The position numbers and the translations under genes were made by a program. The notes beneath the pieces were generated by a model. The model was not told where the DNA came from. It ran no database searches and worked only from the letters and a program-made list of their open reading frames with translations. Of a DNA stretch of 32,506 nt, positions 1 through 22,590 are shown one piece after another; the stretch's first letter is position 1; the number at the start of each line of letters is the position of its first letter. The stretch covers positions 1-32,506 of the forward strand of contig JALHNZ010000039.1 of NCBI GenBank assembly GCA_022843265.1. The letters run 5' to 3'. The DNA comes from Gemmatimonadaceae bacterium (GTDB taxonomy: Bacteria; Gemmatimonadota; Gemmatimonadetes; Gemmatimonadales; Gemmatimonadaceae).

Positions 1-1100
1 AGTGTTGTGGCGCTGAAGCGAAATGCGCCATTGCCGTTGATCGTCCCGCCGATCACACGGTCACCCACTCGCTTCGCGACCGGAATGGACTCGCCAGTGA
101 GCATGGATTCATCGATTGCGCTTTCGCCCTGCGTGATCTGACCGTCGACCGGAATACGTTCGCCCGGTCGGACAATCACGATCTCGTCGCGCTCAACAGA
201 CTCCACGGGCGCATCGACTTCTTCACCAAAGCGCACAACACGCGCGGTTTTTGGCTGCAGGTGCACAAGCGCACGCAGCGCACTTGATGTTTGTTTCTTG
301 GCGCGCGCTTCAAACATGTTGCCCGTGAGAATGAGCGCGATGATAATGATCACCGCCTCATAGTACACATCGGGCGCCACACCACGGCTGGTGAAAAACT
401 GCGGCGCAAGCGTAGCCGTGAGCGAGTAGACGAACGCAGCGCCCGTGCCGAGCGCGACGAGCGTATTCATATCAGCCGCGTGATGCCGAAACGCCGCCCA
501 CGCACGCGTATAAAAGTGCCGCCCCGCCCACAGCATCACGAACAACGTGGCGAGCAACAGCGCAATGCTGGTGGCAAAGACCGGCAGCTCGTACAGCCAG
601 GGCATGACGGATTGCAGCGCCGGATCAATCGTGCGCATGGACCAGCGCATGAACGGATCTCCCACGTCGCCATGCGAGTGTGCAGACTGCGCAATCGCAC
701 CCATGAGCGGCATGGAGAGGATCATCGCAATCACACCAACCACACCACTGACAATCGCCTTGCGGCGGAACTCGTGATACTCCTCATCCTGCGCACGATC
801 ACGTGCTTCCTGCTCTTCAAACGCCGACTCGTCGGCGTTGGCCAGCTCTGCGCCGTAACCCGTGTCGCGAATGGTGTCGACTAACGATGCGGCCGACACC
901 GCACCCGGATCAAACGTGATCGTCGCGGTTTTCATCATCAGGTTGACATTCGCGTCGGCCACGCCGGGCGTTTTCTGCAGCGTGCGCTGCACACGTGACG
1001 AGCACGCCGCGCACGTCATACCGCTCACCGGAATGCGAATCGTGTCGCTCGCGGTATTCCCCGCCGTCTTGCTCGCCGTATCGCTGATTGAATCGATCAT
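1..1100 (-). CDS. copA: Copper-exporting P1B-type ATPase, N-terminal part (runs off the left edge)
   Basis: Inner-membrane ATPase that pumps Cu(I) out of the cytoplasm. The visible N-terminal ~366 residues hold a heavy-metal-associated domain with GMTCAAC (Cys30 and Cys33) at about residues 20-85, then a linker and several hydrophobic helices, then the start of the actuator domain with the TGES loop near residue 335. The phosphorylation (DKTGT) and nucleotide-binding domains and the membrane CPx motif lie outside the window. ATG at 1098-1100 begins 3 bases after the cupredoxin stop, so the two are co-transcribed and probably translationally coupled. CsoR-like dyads upstream of the cupredoxin gene suggest copper induction. 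A Cu(I) rather than Zn/Cd substrate is inferred from the GMTCAAC site and the cupredoxin partner. Confidence 0.93.
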
Positions 1101-1103
1101 GAC

Positions 1104-1523
1104 TCAGTCCTCCGCGATGACAGCGCCACGCAGCATGCTCATGCCACACATGAACTCGTAGCGGCCGGCCGCAGGGGGTGTGATGTCGATCGTGGTGCGC
1201 TGCCCGGTCGGGAGAAACTTCCGGATCTTGAAGTCGGGAAACACGACCTCTTCAGAGCAACCTGAGGTATCGCGGCGATCGAACGTCAGGCGCACGGGCT
1301 GTCCGGCTTTGACGCGCACCTGCGACGGGCTGTAGCCGCCATCTACGACAATCGTGATCTCAGCCGGTCCGTGACTCGTGCCGGCGTTCGCACTCGGCGA
1401 CGCCGCCACCATCACCGCGGCTGCACTCCGTCGGCCAGCCAGAAAGAAATACCAGTTCACCCACGCGATGGAGGTGATACCGGCCACGAGCACGAGCCAT
1501 TCAGCGGAAGTCAGGGGAAGCAT
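1104..1523 (-). CDS. Membrane-anchored cupredoxin-domain copper-binding protein
   Basis: A 139-aa protein with one N-terminal transmembrane helix (about residues 8-28), a short Ala/Ser linker, and a cupredoxin-like beta-sandwich from about residue 53 to the end. Candidate metal ligands are Cys89 (SGCSEE) and the FMCGMSM motif with Cys126, Met128 and Met130, as in cupredoxin_1-type proteins that accompany CopA ATPases. It probably binds copper on the outer face of the membrane and hands it to or receives it from the pump. The ATG at 1521-1523 has a GAGG Shine-Dalgarno about 7 bases upstream. It is the first gene of a two-gene leftward operon with copA. The family assignment is firm; the direction of copper transfer is inference. 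Confidence 0.85.
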   Translation of the reverse strand: MLPLTSAEWLVLVAGITSIAWVNWYFFLAGRRSAAAVMVAASPSANAGTSHGPAEITIVVDGGYSPSQVRVKAGQPVRLTFDRRDTSGCSEEVVFPDFKIRKFLPTGQRTTIDITPPAAGRYEFMCGMSMLRGAVIAED

Positions 1524-1598
1524 ACGGCGCCTCGGGAGTGGAGCGGTCGTGCCGTGGTCAGTTGCCGCGTCGGCCGCACGTAAACGATGAGAGGCTAG

Positions 1599-1639
1599 AT
1601 ACCCCCCACGGGTATATGATATATACCCCCTACCCCTAT
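1599..1639. promoter_or_regulatory. Nested CsoR-like copper operator dyads
   Basis: The stretch holds ATACCC (1599-1604), five bases, then GGGTAT (1610-1615). An overlapping dyad has GGGTATAT (1610-1617), GAT, then ATATACCC (1621-1628), followed by a further ATACCCCCTACCCCTAT at 1623-1639. C-tract/G-tract dyads flanked by TA are the usual shape of CsoR-family Cu(I)-repressor sites. It lies about 80 bases upstream of the cupredoxin start and just behind the stop of the PYP-like gene. No csoR gene is in the window. Operator function is inferred. Confidence 0.55.
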
Positions 1640-1663
1640 GTCAACTATTCGGTCCCGCGCCGT

Positions 1664-2083
1664 TTACTCCGGGCCGAGCGGTTTGCCCTCGTGATCGGAA
1701 ATGAGCACCCACACGGTGCGCGTGCGCTTGGAGAAGAACAGCCGCACCGTCACATCGCGCGGCGACTGCTTGAAGGCAAAGTGAAAGGTGAAGGACGTGT
1801 CGAGCATCTCACGGATCACCCCTTCCTTGAAGCGACCGTAGAACTCCTGCACGCGGGTGCAGGGCGCGACCTCGGTAAAGAACTGCTTGCCGATCGCGTC
1901 TTCGGGCGCCAGCGATGCCAGGCGCGATTCCACCGCATTGTATTTGAGAATGCGCCCGGTGCGGTCGAGCTGAATCACGCCGTAGGGCAGGCCGTCGAGC
2001 TCGCCGGGGGACAACGAGTCCACCACTTCGAGTACGGCATCGACGTCGGGGCTGACGGGCGGGCGTCCGCGGGGATCGGTCAT
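1664..2083 (-). CDS. pyp: Photoactive yellow protein (PYP)-like PAS photoreceptor
   Basis: A 139-aa single-domain PAS protein aligning by eye, without gaps through the chromophore region, with Halorhodospira halophila PYP: LDGL, IQLD, YNA-E, IGK-FF, VAPCT, EFYG-FKEGV and a terminal WV strand are shared. Cys75 (VAPCT) matches Cys69, which carries p-coumaric acid as a thioester. Tyr48 and Glu52 match Tyr42 and Glu46, which hydrogen-bond the chromophore phenolate. Thr50 and Arg52 of classical PYP are replaced by Ala56 and Leu58. Length is close to the usual 125 residues, with a slightly longer N-terminus and a charged C-terminal tail. It is cytosolic, with no signal peptide. The ATG at 2081-2083 sits on a dyad and lacks a clear Shine-Dalgarno. 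No tyrosine ammonia-lyase or p-coumarate ligase gene is nearby. A non-photoactive PYP-fold PAS domain remains possible. Confidence 0.85.
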   Translation of the reverse strand: MTDPRGRPPVSPDVDAVLEVVDSLSPGELDGLPYGVIQLDRTGRILKYNAVESRLASLAPEDAIGKQFFTEVAPCTRVQEFYGRFKEGVIREMLDTSFTFHFAFKQSPRDVTVRLFFSKRTRTVWVLISDHEGKPLGPE

Positions 2084-2180: not shown

Positions 2181-4703
2181 CTACCGTCGCGGGCCCGTCC
2201 ACACCGCGATAATTCCGCAGGAGCCGCGGTTCGTGAGTGGAATGAGTTCGACCGGCGCATTCGCGGTGGAGGGATACACTTCGATGGCCATGATCTCGGA
2301 GGTGCCGAGTCCGGTACCTCCCGCGAAGGGCAGGCCATCAAGGAGGATCTGCATAAGACAATCCCCACGACCACGCAGCCCGCTGTTCGTCACTCGCACA
2401 TACTGGGACGTGCGGAGCAGCTGCGTCCAATCAAACGCCGACGCTCTTAGCTCAATTTCCTCCGGCGTAATGAACGACCCGAGTATTGCGCCCTTGCGCA
2501 CCTGATTCATTCGATCGTAAAAGCCGGTTCTCGAGAGCGGTGTTGATCGATCGGCGATGACCTTGACGGTATCAACCCGGCTGGCAATGCGGTTGAGCGT
2601 GACGAGAAACTCAGCGGCCTTTTCATCCGGCATCGTTTCGCCAAAGTACGGCGTGTATCCCAACCGGCGAACACCAACGGACAACGCGCCGTCCACCCGA
2701 GTGCCGAGTGCAACGCGCCCGGAGGCATCCGTGGTATACGGCCGGCCGCCATTGAGCGAAACTAGCGCGTACGGAATGGGAATGCCGTCGCTGTCGACCA
2801 CGCGAATCGTTGAGCTACCACCAGCCTTCTCGCGTGCGCTGACGGTATCGAGAGTGGGCATCACACGACTCAGGCGCGCGATATATTGATCGTTCGACGA
2901 ATCGCGCGTGAGCGTTGCCTGATAGGTCCGAAATCCGACCCGGTTCACGCGTACGTTGATTGCGCGTCTTGTGGTGTCGCGCAGACGGAGTACGCCGAGA
3001 TCGTCAGTTACGCGCGGGGCCGAGCTGTCCACGGTCACGTTCGCGAAGCTCACCGGATTCCCGGTCAGAGAATCTACGACACGCAGCCGAACGTTTAGAA
3101 CGGTTGGCTCACTGGAGCGAGTGTGGTTTCGTCTGAGCAACGAATCGCTGAGCGATGAGAACAACACGTCATCCATGAGCTGGTAAGAGTCCATGACTTC
3201 TTCGGCAGCCACAACATGTGTCGGGCGCAGCATCATGTCTACTCGCGCGGATATGCGCTCGCGCCCCACGTTCAGCGCGATTGTGTTAGTGCCATGCTCC
3301 GCAGCGGTCCCAATCGCAGTTACCGTCACGCCGCTGGGAATTCCACACACGCGGTAGCGACCCATGCTATCCACGCTCGCTGCACGACTTCGCAGCGATG
3401 AACGTCCGGACTCCTGCCACCGAAAATCGATGCGTGCTTCGGCGACCGGTGCGTCAGTGGCACTGCTGATGCGCCCGTGAACAAGCACCGTCGATGCCCC
3501 CGCAGCATCGCACGTGGCTTGATCACGAAAGCTGTTCGCTGGTAAGGCGATCACTGCGCCCGACGCGTCCACGAAATCTTCGCGACCCGCCGTGTATTGC
3601 GGGAACAGTCCGACAAAGACCTCATCCACCTCGCCGCTTGTCACCTGCGTGCCAATCAGCGTCTGCCGGTCTTCGAGCAGATCCGGAGCCCGTGCGCCTC
3701 GCGCGAGCTGAATCGTCACGTGCGACTGCACGCGAGGCATGCGAATCTCCCATCGATTGGCAAACCACAGCCCGCTGGGCAACTGCGCATATTCGATCCA
3801 GCCACCGGGCTGTGCATTCTGCAGCTTGCGTTCCAGACCGACGTACTCGTACTCGATGCGTCGCAGCGCCGCGTTCACTCGATCCAACCAGAGCACTCCA
3901 CGAATCTGTATGATGTCTCTTCGCGCGCGCGCTGGCTCAAACGTTACGCCAAGCCACTCCGTGTTACGCGTGGGATCTTCCGCCAGACGCAAACAATACG
4001 AATCCAGAAACGAATCGTCCGCGAGCACATGAGCGTCGGGCGCGCGGTATAGTGTAGAACCGTCCAGTTGGCGCGAGACAAAGCCAGCCGTAGTCAGCGA
4101 ATCGGCGGGCAAGCTCTGAAAGGCTCGCACTGAATCGCTGGTGTATGACGTAGTGTGCGCGGCAAGCACCGCGTCGTCTGACAGACGGCGCTGCTCAGTC
4201 GTGATGCGAAAACGAACGCGGGGCCGGCCGTCGAGCGGTGCAAGCAGCGACGACCACAACGCCGTGCGTGCTTGATCGAAGCGCTGTGCAACGAGCAGTG
4301 ATTGCTCAGGCCGCAGCCGGCAGCGGTTGTCAACACGGGTACGCACGCTCGTAACGACGATTGGTGCAGAAGGCAGCACCGCCCGCAGTTCCCGCCTTTC
4401 ATTTGTACGGAGTCGAACGCGCGCGAGTGAGTACGGCAGTTGTCCAACGCGAAGTGCTCGCAGCTCAATCGAGTCTGTCGAAACACGGAGCCAGAAGTTG
4501 CCTCGTTCGCCGGTTACGGTTCGCCCGACTGTTGCGCCGTCCCGCACACGCTGTGCCGTGACAACCACGCCCGACGCAGGAGTTGTGCTGTCTGGTTGCG
4601 TGAGCACGCCGGATATTTCTTGAGCGCACGCTCCTCGGACAGCGACCGTGGCGAGCAGAAGCGTAAGAGCGACCGCAACTGAGACACATCGTTCGAGTAG
4701 CAT
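2181..4703 (-). CDS. Secreted protein with carboxypeptidase-regulatory repeats and a C-terminal plug-like domain
   Basis: An 840-aa protein with a Sec signal peptide (first ~27 residues, cleavage near ACAQ). A carboxypeptidase-regulatory-like Ig fold lies at about residues 30-110, followed by a middle region without a recognised domain. More carboxypeptidase-regulatory-like modules lie at about 405-480, 545-615 and 635-705. The final ~100 residues resemble a TonB-receptor plug (ILLDG, ...EIMAIEVYPS..., GSCGIIAVWT). No beta-barrel follows, so it cannot be a complete TonB-dependent receptor. Such proteins recur in Gemmatimonadota and are often annotated only by their regulatory-like domain. It is probably periplasmic or outer-membrane-associated; ligand unknown. 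ATG at 4701-4703 is supported by the signal peptide. It is divergent from the Cys-rich peptide gene, and 97 bases separate its stop from the PYP-like start. Confidence 0.8.
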   Translation of the reverse strand: MLLERCVSVAVALTLLLATVAVRGACAQEISGVLTQPDSTTPASGVVVTAQRVRDGATVGRTVTGERGNFWLRVSTDSIELRALRVGQLPYSLARVRLRTNERRELRAVLPSAPIVVTSVRTRVDNRCRLRPEQSLLVAQRFDQARTALWSSLLAPLDGRPRVRFRITTEQRRLSDDAVLAAHTTSYTSDSVRAFQSLPADSLTTAGFVSRQLDGSTLYRAPDAHVLADDSFLDSYCLRLAEDPTRNTEWLGVTFEPARARRDIIQIRGVLWLDRVNAALRRIEYEYVGLERKLQNAQPGGWIEYAQLPSGLWFANRWEIRMPRVQSHVTIQLARGARAPDLLEDRQTLIGTQVTSGEVDEVFVGLFPQYTAGREDFVDASGAVIALPANSFRDQATCDAAGASTVLVHGRISSATDAPVAEARIDFRWQESGRSSLRSRAASVDSMGRYRVCGIPSGVTVTAIGTAAEHGTNTIALNVGRERISARVDMMLRPTHVVAAEEVMDSYQLMDDVLFSSLSDSLLRRNHTRSSEPTVLNVRLRVVDSLTGNPVSFANVTVDSSAPRVTDDLGVLRLRDTTRRAINVRVNRVGFRTYQATLTRDSSNDQYIARLSRVMPTLDTVSAREKAGGSSTIRVVDSDGIPIPYALVSLNGGRPYTTDASGRVALGTRVDGALSVGVRRLGYTPYFGETMPDEKAAEFLVTLNRIASRVDTVKVIADRSTPLSRTGFYDRMNQVRKGAILGSFITPEEIELRASAFDWTQLLRTSQYVRVTNSGLRGRGDCLMQILLDGLPFAGGTGLGTSEIMAIEVYPSTANAPVELIPLTNRGSCGIIAVWTGPRR

Positions 4704-5133: not shown

Positions 5134-5802
5134 GTGAACAAACGTACTGAAAACATCATGACGGCCATTCTGACGACCGCCGCAGTGGTACTCGTAGCGG
5201 TGGTCGTCATGAAGGAGTTCGGGATTCTGACACCCGAGCCTCCTAGTTCTCGCGACGATTTTGATCTCTCTGGTGAGCTCGCACCTATAGAGAGGGCGTC
5301 GAGAGAGATCGCGAGTGAGGCAGGCGCTCTACGCGTCATCGAGTTTCTCGATCTGCAATGCCCGGCGTGCGCAGACTATCACACTAGAGTACTCAGTCGG
5401 CTCGATGACAGCTTGCCGGCGGGGGCCTTTTCGCTCAAGGTCGTGCATCTGCCACTTCAGATTCATCCTCACGCAATAGACGCTGCTCGTGCGTCCGAGT
5501 GCGCCTTCGAACAATCACGATTTTCCGAGTACTTAGGGGTCGCGTTAGCTGCCCAGCGGCGTTTCCGCGAACAACCGTGGCTTGAACTTGCGACCACGGT
5601 TGGCGTGGCAGATACAACAAAGTTTCGCGCATGTATGCAGCGAGGAGACACCGCGCAGCAGATCCTCGCGGGCCTCTCAGCCTCAGACGCGCTGGGTGTG
5701 CGCGCCACTCCAACTCTCGTCGTCAACGGCATACTGCGTTCGCAGCCACCGAGTCTCGCCGAACTTCTAAAGATCGCCAGAACTAGCACGGTCGGCAGAT
5801 AG
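5134..5802 (+). CDS. Membrane-anchored DsbA-like thioredoxin (CPAC)
   Basis: A 222-aa protein with an uncleaved signal anchor (about residues 9-27) and a periplasmic thioredoxin fold of the DsbA/thioredoxin_4 type. The redox motif is CPAC at residues 76-79 in FLDLQCPAC. The cis-proline loop is ATPTLVVNG near residue 192. A helical insertion lies between them, as in DsbA. Two further cysteines (in SECAF and RACMQ) lie in the helical part. The GTG at 5134 is taken as start; an ATG at 5158 would shorten the n-region and is an alternative, and neither has a strong Shine-Dalgarno. It lies behind the Cys-rich secreted protein, its most likely client, and 54 bases before the DnaE2 gene. Oxidase versus isomerase activity cannot be told from sequence. 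Confidence 0.88.
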   Translation: MNKRTENIMTAILTTAAVVLVAVVVMKEFGILTPEPPSSRDDFDLSGELAPIERASREIASEAGALRVIEFLDLQCPACADYHTRVLSRLDDSLPAGAFSLKVVHLPLQIHPHAIDAARASECAFEQSRFSEYLGVALAAQRRFREQPWLELATTVGVADTTKFRACMQRGDTAQQILAGLSASDALGVRATPTLVVNGILRSQPPSLAELLKIARTSTVGR

Positions 5803-5827
5803 TACCAAACAGATTTTCGGCTTATAT

Positions 5828-5853
5828 TCGGGTTCAGCCTGTGACGAACCCGA
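5828..5853. promoter_or_regulatory. 8-bp inverted repeat just before the dnaE2 start
   Basis: TCGGGTTC (5828-5835) and GAACCCGA (5846-5853) are perfect inverted arms around a 10-base centre, ending 3 bases before the GTG start of the polymerase gene. It does not fit the Bacillus-type (GAAC-N4-GTTC) or alphaproteobacterial (GTTC-N7-GTTC) LexA boxes. It could be an operator for damage control or a translation-blocking hairpin. Confidence 0.35.
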
Positions 5854-5856
5854 TCC

Positions 5857-8800
5857 GTGCCCGCGAACTCCACACCGCAATACGCCGAGCTGCATTGCCA
5901 CTCGGCCTTCTCTCTGCTCGACGGAGCCGCCCTCCCCGAGGCGCTCGTGGAGCGCGCCCACGTGCTCGGTTACCCCGCGCTGGCCATTACGGATCATGAC
6001 GAGCTCGGTGGCATTGTGCGCTTTGCGCAGGCCGCGGCGGCCGTTGAACTCGGTGGCATTCTGGGTGTCGAGCTCACGGTCGATGTAAGCGGCGCCGCAC
6101 GCGACAGCACAACACCCGCCTCACCGCTCACGCACCTGGTACTGCTCGCCGAAACACGCGAAGGCTACGGCAATCTGTCCACGCTCGTGACGCGCGCACG
6201 CATGGATCGCCCACGCGGACAGCCGGCGGTTTCATTTGAACTGCTCGCACAACATACGTCCGGTGTGTTTGCACTCACGGGTTGCCCACGCGGCTGGGTG
6301 CCACAACTCGCGCGTGAAGGACGCATGCGTGACGCCAGACGCGCACTCGGCCTGCTCACCGACATGTTCAACGATCGTGTGGCCATGGAAGTGTGGGATC
6401 ACGGGTTGCCGGAGGAGCGGAAGCTTGTGCGTCGACTGTTGCCACTCGCACACGCACTTGGTGTGCCGTGGGTGGTGACCAACAATGTGCATTACGCGGA
6501 ACCGAATGGACGCATTGTGCACGATGTCCTCAGTGCCCTGCGTCATGAACAAACGCTCGATACCATGGGTACGCTGCTGCGTCCCAACGGCGAATGGTAT
6601 CTCAAGAGCGCTGAACAGCTCGCGGTGACGTGGCGCGGCCATGAAGAAGGGCTCGCGCAGTCACTGGTGATTGCCGAACGCTGTGCATTTCGGTTGCAGC
6701 AACTGCGCCCTGCACTGCCGGCATTTCCGCTGCCGCCTGGCGTGACCGCAAATACATATCTCGCCCAACTGCTTGAGCAGGGTGCGACGGAGCGCTGGGG
6801 CGCGCCCGGCACAGACCGTCGCACACCCAAACATGAGGCACAGCTCGCGCACGAACTCGCGCTCATCAACAAACTGGGGCTGGCCGGATTTTTCCTGATT
6901 GTGTGGGACATTGTGCGCTTTGCACGGCGCGAAGGCATTCTCTGTCAGGGACGCGGCTCGGCGGCCAACAGCGCGGTGTGTTATTGCCTGGGTATCACCG
7001 CGGTTGATCCGATTCGCATGGAACTGCTCTTTGAACGGTTCCTGAGCGAAGACCGGAAGGAGCCGCCCGATATCGACATTGACTTTGCGCATCGCGATCG
7101 CGAGCGCGTCTTGCAATACGTGTACGAACGCTACGGACGTGAACACGCGGCCATGGTGTGTGAACAGATTACGTATCGTGGCCGCAGCGCCGTACGCGAT
7201 GTCGCGCGCGTGCTTGGTTTCAGTGTGCAACAGGGTGAAGCGCTGGCGTCGGTTGCTGATCGGTTCAGTGCAAAAGCCACCGCGAACTCACTGCGGGTTG
7301 AGCACGGCGGTGATGGCGAAACAGACACGCTTATCGACACTGTGCAGTCCGACGCGCAGCTGGCGGCGCATCGTCTCGCGCCGGATCCACGTCTTGCCGA
7401 TGAAGTCACCACCAGCCAGCACGCGCCGGACATGCGTGATGATGAACGGGCACTCGCCCGCGCTGCGTTACGGGTGAACACGGATCATTGGCGCGGTGAA
7501 ACGGAGCGGAGTGTTGCCAAGGCGGCCGCGAAGGCGGTTGCGCGGGCTGATGCAAAGGCCGTTGCAAAGGTTGCCGCTGCGGCGCACAACGATGAGGCGA
7601 AACAGCTCGCCAATCCGTTCTCCCCCGACATGGCCTCGCGCGTCGGCCCCGCCGGTGGCGCATCACCGCGCGACATTCTGGTGCAGCGACTCGGTCAACA
7701 GTTCATCAGCGGAACAGAAGCCGTGCGCCTGGCCAATCAGGTGGATGACGACGCGCGAAAGCTGCATCTGGTGGTGCCTGATGGTGCGGCCACTGCCACA
7801 ACCAACAACACCAGCAACACCACCAACACCACCCACAACACCACCAACGACACAACCACCAATCCCACCAACGGCACCGCCAGCAACCCACTGCTCGAAT
7901 CCGTCGGTCTCGACCCATCCGACCCACGCGTGGCCGTACTCGCCAACGTGGTCGCCGGCCTGCATCAACTACCGCGACATCGCTCCATTCACGTAGGCGG
8001 TTTTGTACTCAGCCGCGAACCGCTCGGCAGCGTCGTCCCGATCGAACCGGCCAGCATGCCAGGGCGCACGGTCATCCAATGGGAAAAAGATGATCTCGAT
8101 CCGGTCGGCTTCGTCAAAATCGACCTGCTCGGACTCGGCATGCTCACCGTAGTGCAAGACTGTCTGCTCTATCTCAAGCACACACGCGGCATTGACATTG
8201 ATCTCGCGCAGCTCGACATGACGGATCAGGCGGTGTACGACCAACTCTGCGCCGCAGATACGGTCGGTGTCTTCCAGGTAGAGAGTCGCGCGCAAATGAA
8301 CACATTGCCGCGTCTCAAACCGCGCTGTTTTTATGATCTGGTGGTGGAAGTAGCACTCATTCGCCCCGGACCCATTCAAGGCGACATGGTGCATCCGTAT
8401 TTGCGCCGTCGCGCCGGACTTGAACCCATTACGTATCCGCATCCGGCGGTTGAGCACGCACTCAAGCGCACACTGGGCATTCCGCTCTTTCAGGAGCAGG
8501 GCATGCAGGTGGCGATTGCAGCAGCGGGTTTTACTCCCGGACAGGCCGATGTGTTGCGCCGCGCCATGGGGCACAAACGCAGTCGCGAGCGCATGGCCGA
8601 GATTGGGGAACAACTCATTGCCGGCATGGCACGCAATGGTATTGCCGAAGACATCGCGCGTCGCATTTACAATCAGATCAACGCATTTGCCGACTACGGA
8701 TTTCCGGAGAGCCACGCGGCGAGTTTTGCGCTGATTGTGTACGCCACGGCGTATCTGCGTCACTACTACGGTGCCGAGTTTACGGCATCGATTCTCAATG

Positions 8801-9822
8801 CGCAGCCCATGGGATTCTATTCACCGGGCACGCTGGTTGAAGACGCCAAACGACACGGCGTGGAAGTGCGCGCGATTGATATCACACGCAGCGCGTGGGA
8901 TCACACACTGGAACTCACCGACTCCCGTGTGTTGGTGCCGCATGATGGTGTGGTCGCGTGGCGCGCCAATGCCGCACAATCCGCGGCGCAATCCACAGCG
9001 GCGCAATCCACCGCGGCGCAATCCACAGCGGCGCAATCCGCAGCGGCGAATCAAACACCCACGCACGGCACGGTCCCATCCACACAACATCCACCCGCCG
9101 TTCGCCTCGGCTTGCGTCTCGTACGCGGCCTGGGCTCCCGCGCCCGCACTGAACTCGAACGTGCATTGGCCCAAGGGCCATTCACAAGCGTCACGGATTT
9201 TGTGCAACGCGTACAACTCGACCGCGGTTCGATTACCCGACTCGCCGAAAGCGGCGCGTTTGACGAGTTGTTTGCGCACGAGCCGCCGGCGCGAAGGCGT
9301 CGTGTGGCACTGTGGGAGTTGCTGGCCGCGCAGCGCGGTGATGCCGGACCACTGGCGCCACAAGGCATGACGCCTGCGCCCGCCGCCGTTCCCGCGCTCA
9401 CCGCAGTGGAGCTCACCGCCGCGGATTACAAAATGACGGGACTCTCACTCGCCGGTCACCCCATGAAACACGTGCGCGAGGCGCTGGCCATGAATGGTGT
9501 GCGAACGGCGCGCGAACTGGTGCAGGATGGTCGCGACGGTGAACCGGTCGGCACGGCGGGGCTGGTGATTTGTCGTCAGCGCCCCGGCACGGCCAAGGGC
9601 TTTGTCTTTCTCACGCTTGAAGACGAAACCGGCATGATCAACGTGGTGGTGACGCCCAAACGTTTTGAGCGTGATGCCAAGATTATTTCTGGTTCACCGC
9701 TGCTGCTCGTGCGCGGCACGCTGCAAGTGGAAGGACGTGTGGTCAATGTGCGCGCGCGTACGTTTCGTGCACTGCGCGCGCAAAGCGGTGAAGATTTTGT
9801 GAAGGGACACAACTATCGCTAA
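5857..9822 (+). CDS. dnaE2: Error-prone DNA polymerase III alpha subunit, DnaE2/ImuC type
   Basis: A C-family polymerase used for translesion synthesis and damage-induced mutagenesis. Order: PHP domain (YAELHCHSAFS, ITDHDE; residues 8-210), palm with GRGSAANSAV near 365 and the catalytic PDIDIDF near 404-410, third catalytic Asp in VKIDLLGLG near 755, fingers with RRAMGHKRS, a helix-hairpin-helix part, and a C-terminal OB fold near 1230-1300. VGGFVLSREPL, PIEPASM and the short C-terminus favour DnaE2 over replicative DnaE. At 1321 aa it is about 250 longer than usual, because of an Ala/Lys tract, an Asn/Thr tract and an AAQST repeat. GTG at 5857 fits the family N-terminus. The usual imuA/imuB partners are not adjacent. 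Its stop overlaps the stop of the convergent lipoprotein gene by 3 bases. Confidence 0.93.
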   Translation: MPANSTPQYAELHCHSAFSLLDGAALPEALVERAHVLGYPALAITDHDELGGIVRFAQAAAAVELGGILGVELTVDVSGAARDSTTPASPLTHLVLLAETREGYGNLSTLVTRARMDRPRGQPAVSFELLAQHTSGVFALTGCPRGWVPQLAREGRMRDARRALGLLTDMFNDRVAMEVWDHGLPEERKLVRRLLPLAHALGVPWVVTNNVHYAEPNGRIVHDVLSALRHEQTLDTMGTLLRPNGEWYLKSAEQLAVTWRGHEEGLAQSLVIAERCAFRLQQLRPALPAFPLPPGVTANTYLAQLLEQGATERWGAPGTDRRTPKHEAQLAHELALINKLGLAGFFLIVWDIVRFARREGILCQGRGSAANSAVCYCLGITAVDPIRMELLFERFLSEDRKEPPDIDIDFAHRDRERVLQYVYERYGREHAAMVCEQITYRGRSAVRDVARVLGFSVQQGEALASVADRFSAKATANSLRVEHGGDGETDTLIDTVQSDAQLAAHRLAPDPRLADEVTTSQHAPDMRDDERALARAALRVNTDHWRGETERSVAKAAAKAVARADAKAVAKVAAAAHNDEAKQLANPFSPDMASRVGPAGGASPRDILVQRLGQQFISGTEAVRLANQVDDDARKLHLVVPDGAATATTNNTSNTTNTTHNTTNDTTTNPTNGTASNPLLESVGLDPSDPRVAVLANVVAGLHQLPRHRSIHVGGFVLSREPLGSVVPIEPASMPGRTVIQWEKDDLDPVGFVKIDLLGLGMLTVVQDCLLYLKHTRGIDIDLAQLDMTDQAVYDQLCAADTVGVFQVESRAQMNTLPRLKPRCFYDLVVEVALIRPGPIQGDMVHPYLRRRAGLEPITYPHPAVEHALKRTLGIPLFQEQGMQVAIAAAGFTPGQADVLRRAMGHKRSRERMAEIGEQLIAGMARNGIAEDIARRIYNQINAFADYGFPESHAASFALIVYATAYLRHYYGAEFTASILNAQPMGFYSPGTLVEDAKRHGVEVRAIDITRSAWDHTLELTDSRVLVPHDGVVAWRANAAQSAAQSTAAQSTAAQSTAAQSAAANQTPTHGTVPSTQHPPAVRLGLRLVRGLGSRARTELERALAQGPFTSVTDFVQRVQLDRGSITRLAESGAFDELFAHEPPARRRRVALWELLAAQRGDAGPLAPQGMTPAPAAVPALTAVELTAADYKMTGLSLAGHPMKHVREALAMNGVRTARELVQDGRDGEPVGTAGLVICRQRPGTAKGFVFLTLEDETGMINVVVTPKRFERDAKIISGSPLLLVRGTLQVEGRVVNVRARTFRALRAQSGEDFVKGHNYR
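7507..7605 (+). repeat. Ala/Lys-rich low-complexity tract inside dnaE2
   Basis: Degenerate GCx/AAG-type codons encode alternating Ala-Lys/Arg stretches (AKAAAKAVARADAKAVAK) at about residues 552-585 of the polymerase. They sit between the conserved DVARVLGF block and the HVGGFVL block. The tract probably forms a charged helix or a flexible linker on the surface. Confidence 0.6.
7789..7887 (+). repeat. ACC/AAC trinucleotide tract encoding an Asn/Thr-rich linker in dnaE2
   Basis: Near-perfect ACC/AAC triplets encode an Asn/Thr run at about residues 645-677. Composition (almost no G on the plus strand) differs sharply from the surrounding gene. It looks like a slippage-prone microsatellite kept in frame because the unit is three bases. 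Confidence 0.75.
8983..9042 (+). repeat. 15-bp tandem repeat (AAQST) inside dnaE2
   Basis: Four head-to-tail copies of GCGGCGCAATCCACA with only third-codon or single-base changes, preceded by a partial copy at 8971-8982. They encode AAQST, AAQST, AAQST, AAQSA near residues 1043-1062, just before the conserved LRLVRGLG helix-hairpin-helix region. In-frame units imply copy-number variation would be tolerated. Confidence 0.85.
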
Positions 9823-20995: not shown

Positions 20996-21114
20996 GAAGC
21001 CGTTCCGTGATCCGATGGGGAGGGAGGCGAAGGAGGGACCTCTCAAACTACGCGCCGGTCCGCCTCTGTGTTCAGCGAACGGCAGAACTGGCGCGGCACT
21101 CGTACATTGCTCGC

Positions 21115-22590
21115 ATGTCGCTGCTCGAACTCTATGATGCGTCCCTGCTGGGTCGCGCCAATCAACCGGCACTCGAGTGCGCCAAGGCTGATGGCGCCCT
21201 CCTGTCGCTGCAATTTGCCGATCTCGAGACGCGCAGCAACCGGCTCGGGCGACTGCTCACGGATCGTGGCCTGCGGAGCGGCGACCGACTGGCCTTCTGC
21301 CTGAGCAATCGCGTGGAAGTGATTGACCTCTGGCTGGCCTGCGTCAAGCTCGGCGTGATCGTGGTGCCCATCAACGTCATGTACAAGACGCGAGAGATCA
21401 GTCACATCTGTGCCGATGCGTCGCCTCGCGCAGTGGTCACGACCACAGATCGCGCCGGCGACTTTCCGAGCGGTGTTGAGCTGTGGGATGTCGACACGGT
21501 CACCGCACTCGCGCAGTCGCTGCCGGGTGATCGCTGCGCCGTGCAGTCGCGAGCCGATTCGCCGGCGGCGCTTATCTATACCTCTGGCACAACCGGCGTC
21601 GCCAAAGGCGCCATCCTCACGCACGGCAACTTTGCCGCGAATGCCCTGTCGTTGCTCACTGCATGGCAAATCACACCGTCAGATCGGTATCTCGCCGCAC
21701 TACCGCTCTTTCATGTACACGGCCTTGCCAATGGTGTGCACTGCTGGCTCGCGAGCGGCTGTCACATGCGGCTCGTCGAACGGTTCGAAGCGTCACGCGC
21801 GGTGCAGTGGTTTGAGGAATACCGCCCGACCCTGTTTTTTGGCGTGCCCACCATGTACGTGCGACTGCTGGAGGTACCGGTGGAGCGCGCCCGCGCGATC
21901 GGTGCACAAACGCGTCTCTTCGTGTCGGGATCGGCGCCATTGCCCGCCTCGGTGCTCGAGCAGTTTGCCGACGCGTTCGGCCACACCATCCTGGAGCGCT
22001 ACGGCATGACGGAAACACTCATGAACGTGAGCAATCCACTGATTGGTGAACGGCGACCGGGCACGGTGGGCCGCGCACTGCCCATGGTAAGCGTGGAGAT
22101 TCGCGATGCACACCATCGCGCCGTGGCGACGGACTGTGTGGGTGAACTGTGGGTGCGCGGTCCGAACGTGTGCAGCGGGTATTGGCAACGGGAAGAAGCC
22201 ACAGCCGCCGCATTTGTTGATGGATGGTTCGGCACTGGCGATATCGGCGTGATGTCGCCGGACGGTTATATCACGCTGCAAGGACGACGCTCGGATCTCA
22301 TTATTTCTGGCGGCTTCAATATTTATCCGCGCGAAATTGAGGAGCTGCTCACGTCGTTTGCGGGTGTGCACGAAGCGGCGGTGGCGGGTCAGCCAGATCC
22401 GGTACGCGGCGAGGTGCCCGTCGCGTATCTCGTGTGCGAGGCAACGACCGATTTTGCGGCCATCGAAACGCAGCTTCGCCAGGAACTGGCCTCCTTCAAA
22501 GTGCCGCGTGCATATGTGCGCGTGGACGCACTCCCGCGCACCGCGCTCGGCAAGGTGCAGAAACATTTGTTGCCGTCACGAGAAACATGA
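21115..22590 (+). CDS. matB: Malonyl-CoA synthetase-like acyl-CoA ligase (MatB type)
   Basis: A 491-aa cytosolic ANL-superfamily ligase that adenylates a short dicarboxylate and forms the CoA thioester using ATP. The P-loop-like YTSGTTGVAKGA is near residue 160. ALPLFHVHGLANGV, SGSAPLP, ERYGMTET and SNPLIGERRPGTVG match MatB closely; the Arg of ERYGMTE contacts the malonate carboxylate in characterised MatB. FGTGDIG, GRRSDLIISGGFNIYPREIE and the catalytic Lys in LGKVQK near the C-terminus complete the two-domain fold. ATG at 21115 fits family length; the open frame upstream overlaps the divergent gene. Its stop overlaps the matC start (ATGA), so the two are translationally coupled. Methylmalonate is an alternative substrate. 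No malonyl-CoA decarboxylase gene (matA) is adjacent. Confidence 0.85.
   Translation: MSLLELYDASLLGRANQPALECAKADGALLSLQFADLETRSNRLGRLLTDRGLRSGDRLAFCLSNRVEVIDLWLACVKLGVIVVPINVMYKTREISHICADASPRAVVTTTDRAGDFPSGVELWDVDTVTALAQSLPGDRCAVQSRADSPAALIYTSGTTGVAKGAILTHGNFAANALSLLTAWQITPSDRYLAALPLFHVHGLANGVHCWLASGCHMRLVERFEASRAVQWFEEYRPTLFFGVPTMYVRLLEVPVERARAIGAQTRLFVSGSAPLPASVLEQFADAFGHTILERYGMTETLMNVSNPLIGERRPGTVGRALPMVSVEIRDAHHRAVATDCVGELWVRGPNVCSGYWQREEATAAAFVDGWFGTGDIGVMSPDGYITLQGRRSDLIISGGFNIYPREIEELLTSFAGVHEAAVAGQPDPVRGEVPVAYLVCEATTDFAAIETQLRQELASFKVPRAYVRVDALPRTALGKVQKHLLPSRET

Follow-up and report, generated by a model that had tools for sequence, protein, structure and literature searches.

Is the small PAS protein encoded at this locus a genuine photoactive yellow protein (PYP), and what does its gene setting say about the output that it might serve? 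The downstream target of PYP signalling is the main open question of the field (Dohmen et al., 2025, PMC12826048). The stretch analysed, referred to as the window, is one entire contig of 32,506 nucleotides (JALHNZ010000039.1) from a genome of 4.6 Mb that is 95% complete. The initial annotation had placed the source, as probable, in Gemmatimonadota, and it does belong there, in the family Gemmatimonadaceae; metagenome-assembled genomes of near relatives are named Gemmatimonas (Gemmatimonas sp. for the same genus) or Gemmatimonadaceae. The gene and the codons of its three key residues are located as follows.

1664..2083, minus strand: pyp, single-domain photoactive yellow protein (ATG at 2083, stop at 1664; 139 aa)
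1859-1861, minus strand: codon of Cys75
1928-1930, minus strand: codon of Glu52
1940-1942, minus strand: codon of Tyr48

The initial annotation gave the coordinates of the gene correctly and left its minus strand unstated; the long plus-strand open reading frame that covers these bases (1538-2212) mirrors pyp. The pyp frame is under purifying selection: comparison with an orthologue from the same genus gives dN = 0 and dS = 0.55 (98 codons), and the median dN/dS among pyp orthologues is 0.16 (494 pairs). Contamination during binning is ruled out as the origin of the gene by orthologues of 84-92% identity in genomes of the same genus.

The window protein is a true PYP of single-domain build, and its chromophore pocket is intact. 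As the annotation proposed, Tyr48, Glu52 and Cys75 align with Tyr42, Glu46 and Cys69 of the Halorhodospira halophila protein, and the motifs that it quoted (YNAVE, IGKQFF, VAPCT and EFYGRFKEGV) are all present. Measured against the published list of a nine-residue conserved pocket and further conserved PYP positions (PMC12826048), all nine p-coumaric acid (pCA) pocket residues are kept (Ile31, Tyr42, Glu46, Phe62, Val66, Ala67, Pro68, Cys69 and Phe96), together with 13 of the 15 others. All 33 distinct orthologues have Cys69 and Glu46; at position 42, 31 of them have Tyr and two have Phe. The H. halophila protein, approximately 41% identical to the window protein, shares its fold, full pocket and single-domain build but differs in having Thr50, Arg52, Tyr94, Tyr98 and Met100 where the window protein has Ala, Leu, Phe, Phe and Gln. 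Gln in place of Met100 would predict a slow recovery from blue-light bleaching. At Ser47, Leu49, Ala50 and Leu52 the window protein follows the family consensus rather than H. halophila.

The profile search proposed by the annotation gave a divided answer: TIGR02373 matches the protein at E = 3e-32, whereas the score of 111.3 bits lies below the curated cut-off of 143.05, which is an NCBI equivalog naming rule and not a definition of the family. The same shortfall is seen in other Gemmatimonadota PYPs and in those of Rhodothermota (100-102 bits), the phylum of the characterised PYP of S. ruber. TIGR02373 covers about 20% of PYPs, and the family has been defined as PYP homologues with a conserved Cys69 (Xing et al., 2022, PMC9664959); the window protein has this cysteine along with Tyr42 and Glu46. 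A phmmer search of PDB sequences returned 33 matches at E < 1e-16, every one a PYP or PYP-derived (best 1.7e-26). The AlphaFold (AF2) model (pLDDT 87.1, pTM 0.80) retrieved in Foldseek 41 top matches that are all PYPs or PYP-derived FAST proteins; PYPs scored from E 1e-12 to 6e-6, and the first other PAS domain followed at E 1.9e-5. The PDB matches, the tree and Foldseek together rule out a non-PYP PAS domain.

In the tree, a check that the annotation had proposed, the protein falls among PYPs, in a clade (97% SH-aLRT) with other Gemmatimonadota and Acidobacteriota PYPs. Its nearest neighbours outside Gemmatimonadaceae come from the Gemmatimonadota family f6 and from Acidobacteriota, in a tree built on few columns with many forks unresolved. 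The annotation had also held PYP to be uncommon outside Proteobacteria and a few other groups. Such rarity is not supported: a close orthologue occurs in 37 of 179 Gemmatimonadaceae genomes, more distant PYPs occur in two other Gemmatimonadota families, and Gemmatimonadota and Acidobacteriota homologues are already listed in the literature (Xing et al., 2022, PMC9664959; Dohmen et al., 2025, PMC12826048). Its companion remark, that no characterised PYP comes from this phylum, agrees with the published table, where none of 12 does (PMC12826048, Table 1). The window PYP is an additional member of a known group and not a discovery; the new part is its gene setting.

The source is a phototrophic Gemmatimonadaceae bacterium; of the 37 genomes with pyp, 29 carry photosynthetic reaction-centre genes, its own included. 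A strict rule tying PYP to phototrophy was rejected; the association is strong across the family (Fisher p = 2e-15), where it is confounded by ancestry, and reaches only p = 0.06 within genus g9. Four draft genomes (G075, G053, G071 and G156), in which absences are uncertain, have a reaction centre and gave neither a close PYP nor a dnaE2 orthologue; their only dnaE2 match, 36-38% identical, is probably the replicative polymerase.

Genus g9 (Gemmatimonas) also holds a second PYP-like paralogue (loci L061-L072, L075 and L076; e.g. L061:4098-4442, minus strand). Cys69 is replaced in all 14 copies (Ser in 11, Gly in 3), Glu46 is retained, with Tyr, Cys or Phe at position 42. All 14 have Cys at PYP position 98, where the 33 canonical orthologues have Phe. 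Position 98 is Tyr in the studied PYP, where it is known as a gateway residue (PDB 2i9v title). The new cysteine is possibly a relocated chromophore attachment site, or a thiol or redox site.

The surroundings of pyp in the window comprise the following features.

1..1100, minus strand: copper-type P-type ATPase (HMA motif), truncated at the end of the contig
1104..1523, minus strand: small membrane-anchored cupredoxin-like protein, with a promoter-like site at 1644-1616
2181..4703, minus strand: 840-aa protein carrying carboxypeptidase-regulatory-like repeats (recognised by eye; no NCBIfam match), part of an insertion
5134..5802, plus strand: thioredoxin/DsbA-like protein (weak NCBIfam match NF041057), second gene of the insertion
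5816..5831, plus strand: predicted SOS/LexA box TTCGGCTTATATTCGG (TTCGG-N6-TTCGG) before dnaE2
5857..9822, plus strand: dnaE2, error-prone DNA polymerase III alpha-type subunit of the translesion mutasome (NF004225, 1271.7 bits against a cut-off of 939)

The cupredoxin-like gene adjoins pyp in the congener G074 too. It is probably a separate transcription unit, because it has a promoter-like site of its own upstream; a common operon of pyp with the downstream cupredoxin and copper ATPase genes is unlikely, given the TTGACA-17-TATCAT promoter-like site and GGGTAT repeats that lie between. The GGGTAT-type inverted repeats TACCCCCCACGGGTA and ATATACCCCCTACCCCTAT (window 1590-1645) overlap this promoter-like site, and appear to resemble a CsoR-type copper operator. 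The window dnaE2 has low-complexity inserts between conserved blocks, at approximately 7800-7960 (rich in Thr/Asn) and 9080-9250 (rich in Ala/Gln/Ser).

In the window, pyp and dnaE2 are divergent and lie 3.8 kb apart with two genes between them; a promoter region common to both is no longer present. The 840-aa gene is absent from the corresponding place in G074, where pyp adjoins dnaE2. This linkage, which the initial annotation did not mention, recurs throughout the family. Of the 37 genomes with an orthologous locus, 36 have pyp and dnaE2 in divergent orientation. The two starts lie within about 400 bp in 32 genomes from eight genera (31 measured in one comparison, and G063, where the dnaE2 match is broken, from another) and 3.3-4.4 kb apart in four, the window's genome included; G014 keeps pyp and has no orthologous dnaE2. 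Several relatives keep dnaE2 without pyp. A dnaE2 family gene flanks 20 of 21 pyp loci, and every other flanking family is found in at most eight of them. No dnaE2 was found near pyp in 50 loci of other phyla or in 15 loci of other Gemmatimonadota families.

The layout resembles the known ImuA-ImuB-DnaE2 SOS mutasome, in that dnaE2 scores above the NF004225 cut-off and imuA and imuB are present, each with an SOS-type box. It differs in that pyp lies in antisense orientation inside the cassette or next to it, and in that the box is the direct repeat TTCGG-N6-TTCGG. In genera g2, g16, g18, g24 and g27, and in genome G064 of g9, pyp sits antisense between imuB and dnaE2; in these nested loci imuB runs toward the pyp stop from the opposite flank. 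In relatives without a close PYP (G149, G146, G016 and G043) imuB directly abuts dnaE2. The simplest history indicated by these gene orders would begin with one insertion of pyp at the imuB-dnaE2 junction; in g1 and most of g9 the pyp-dnaE2 pair would later have moved away from imuAB, with some losses besides. The pairing may stem from one insertion; the 36 cases share ancestry and are not independent.

Apart from a review of blue light that names each term once, no published link between PYP and DnaE2 or ImuB was found in the literature searched. The recent survey of PYPs considered genes in the same predicted operon, outside which a divergent dnaE2 pairing would fall, and its main text mentions neither polymerases nor DNA repair (Dohmen et al., 2025, PMC12826048).

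The repeat TTCGG-N6-TTCGG is a predicted SOS/LexA box of Gemmatimonadaceae, so read because it precedes dnaE2, imuA, imuB, recA and lexA. The promoters of these five genes were compared in G000, G044, G045, G063, G090 and G112; imuA, imuB, recA and a UvrC-like nuclease gene were identified by visual inspection of the sequence, imuA and imuB from their features and homology rather than from a curated model. A strict form of the box (at most one mismatch) has five matches in the window's genome and 4-6 per genome in four genomes, compared with 0-1 for a reversed control. In each of these four genomes strict sites lie before dnaE2 and imuA, in three of them before recA, and in the window's genome also before imuB and the UvrC-like nuclease gene. 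Two tandem copies of a looser repeat stand before lexA in 6/6 genomes. In g9 and g1, intergenic regions carry the repeat just before dnaE2 (19 of 31 regions examined), and the window copy stands nearer to the start of dnaE2 than to that of pyp. The literature search found no description of such a box for Gemmatimonadota. The direct repeat shares its 11-bp period with the alphaproteobacterial box GTTC-N7-GTTC.

These observations fit a scheme in which Cys75 would bind p-coumaric acid as a thioester while Tyr48 and Glu52 would hold and protonate it, as in the PYP family. Blue light would isomerise the chromophore, and the protein would partly unfold into a signalling state acting on a partner protein. 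The gene would have entered, antisense, the imuB/dnaE2 junction of an SOS-controlled mutasome cluster; it has stayed in divergent pairing with dnaE2 across the family, and PYP would supply a blue-light (sunlight) cue linked to a locus for DNA-damage tolerance. We consider this explanation as a whole to be likely. By analogy with the family, including its p-coumarate binding and photocycle, the window PYP is probably a working blue-light photoreceptor. A functional link between PYP and the mutasome, suggested by conserved gene order, is tentative and less likely than not. It is rather unlikely that light serves PYP as an early warning or confirmation of solar DNA damage by which the protein adjusts error-prone repair; the protein might do so by contacting ImuB or DnaE2, or through opposing transcription at the shared locus.

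Chromophore supply bears on the first step of this scheme. The annotation had suggested looking in the full genome for a p-coumarate pathway, and neither a tyrosine ammonia-lyase (TAL) nor a PYP-type coumarate ligase above cut-off was found in the 95% complete genome. The best match to the PYP-activation ligase TIGR02372 reaches 61 bits against a cut-off of 334.7. TAL is ruled out, the sole aromatic ammonia-lyase being HutH (histidine-type SHAAG motif, passing the hutH model), and an AMP ligase at 21007-22590 is unsupported as the PYP ligase, since it comes nearest to malonyl-CoA synthase or to fatty-acid ligases and exceeds no cut-off. HutH is present in all 20 pyp genomes tested and a TIGR02372 ligase over cut-off in none; a second lyase of tyrosine type (HL motif) occurs in two, G045 and G074. 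H. halophila has a TAL-pCL operon, whereas the window pyp has the dnaE2/imuB setting instead. One reading of these absences is a PYP fold that works without chromophore in this organism, as an apoprotein or redox sensor. Yet TAL accompanies 5% of published pyp operons and pCL 32% (PMC12826048); because most of these operons have neither gene, their absence here is weak counter-evidence and does not refute a photoreceptor. Cys69, Glu46 and the entire pocket are moreover under strong purifying selection, and the Gemmatimonas paralogues that have lost Cys69 show how loss looks. We regard a chromophore-free protein as improbable. Gemmatimonas and g16 have a third PYP type (NKWESEM...VAPCTNN), within a few kb of which an aromatic ammonia-lyase gene is located; the places are L074:3641-3937 and L236:8012-10510 (both minus strand) in G045, where the lyase has the HL motif, and L073:3478-3819 (minus strand), with a lyase at L073:1-1284.

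If the protein does sense light, its position beside dnaE2 could still have other causes. The SOS-induced imuAB transcript could run through pyp into dnaE2, so that the messages of the mutasome and of pyp run against one another as in a noncontiguous operon, and the coupling would be transcriptional without any role at the protein level. The nested genera g2, g16, g18, g24 and g27 have the geometry for this: the distance from the end of imuB to the pyp stop is 12-92 bp in G094, G093, G109, G112, G088 and G064 (g9) and 293-531 bp in G090, G007 and G006, dnaE2 starts shortly beyond the pyp start, and no strict TTCGG-N6-TTCGG box precedes dnaE2 in the nested loci of the five genera. No terminator-like site was seen in two regions scanned, and pyp-less relatives have a plain imuB-dnaE2 junction. 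However, the promoter and terminator scans were simple and found nothing on either strand, and the nested layout is not that of the window's genome; such coupling is possible but doubtful. The adjacency could also be a frozen accident of one ancient insertion, with PYP serving as a blue-light receptor for another output such as motility, c-di-GMP or pigment, and to this we give an even chance. The PYP outputs known by experiment are all phototaxis, photoprotective pigment or biofilm (PMC12826048), and PYPs of other phyla are not near dnaE2. In addition, G014 keeps pyp without a dnaE2 orthologue, the pair has parted in four genomes, and in g9 and g1 an SOS box stands immediately upstream of dnaE2 itself, so that PYP would not be required. 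An accident sits less easily with the contrast between dnaE2, present at nearly every locus counted, and all other flanking families, and with the several genomes of g1 and g9 in which the pair moved away from imuAB and stayed together.

Should the link be an accident, an ordinary new PYP remains, and the novelty rests on its gene setting rather than on the protein. The analysis also provides a predicted LexA box for Gemmatimonadaceae, a family that includes sunlit aquatic phototrophs and cultured members such as G. phototrophica. The conserved pairing with a damage-induced error-prone polymerase is a specific candidate for a PYP output. If the link is true, this would be, as far as found, the first photoreceptor of the PYP type tied to mutagenic DNA repair, and the mutation rate of Gemmatimonadaceae would be influenced by light.
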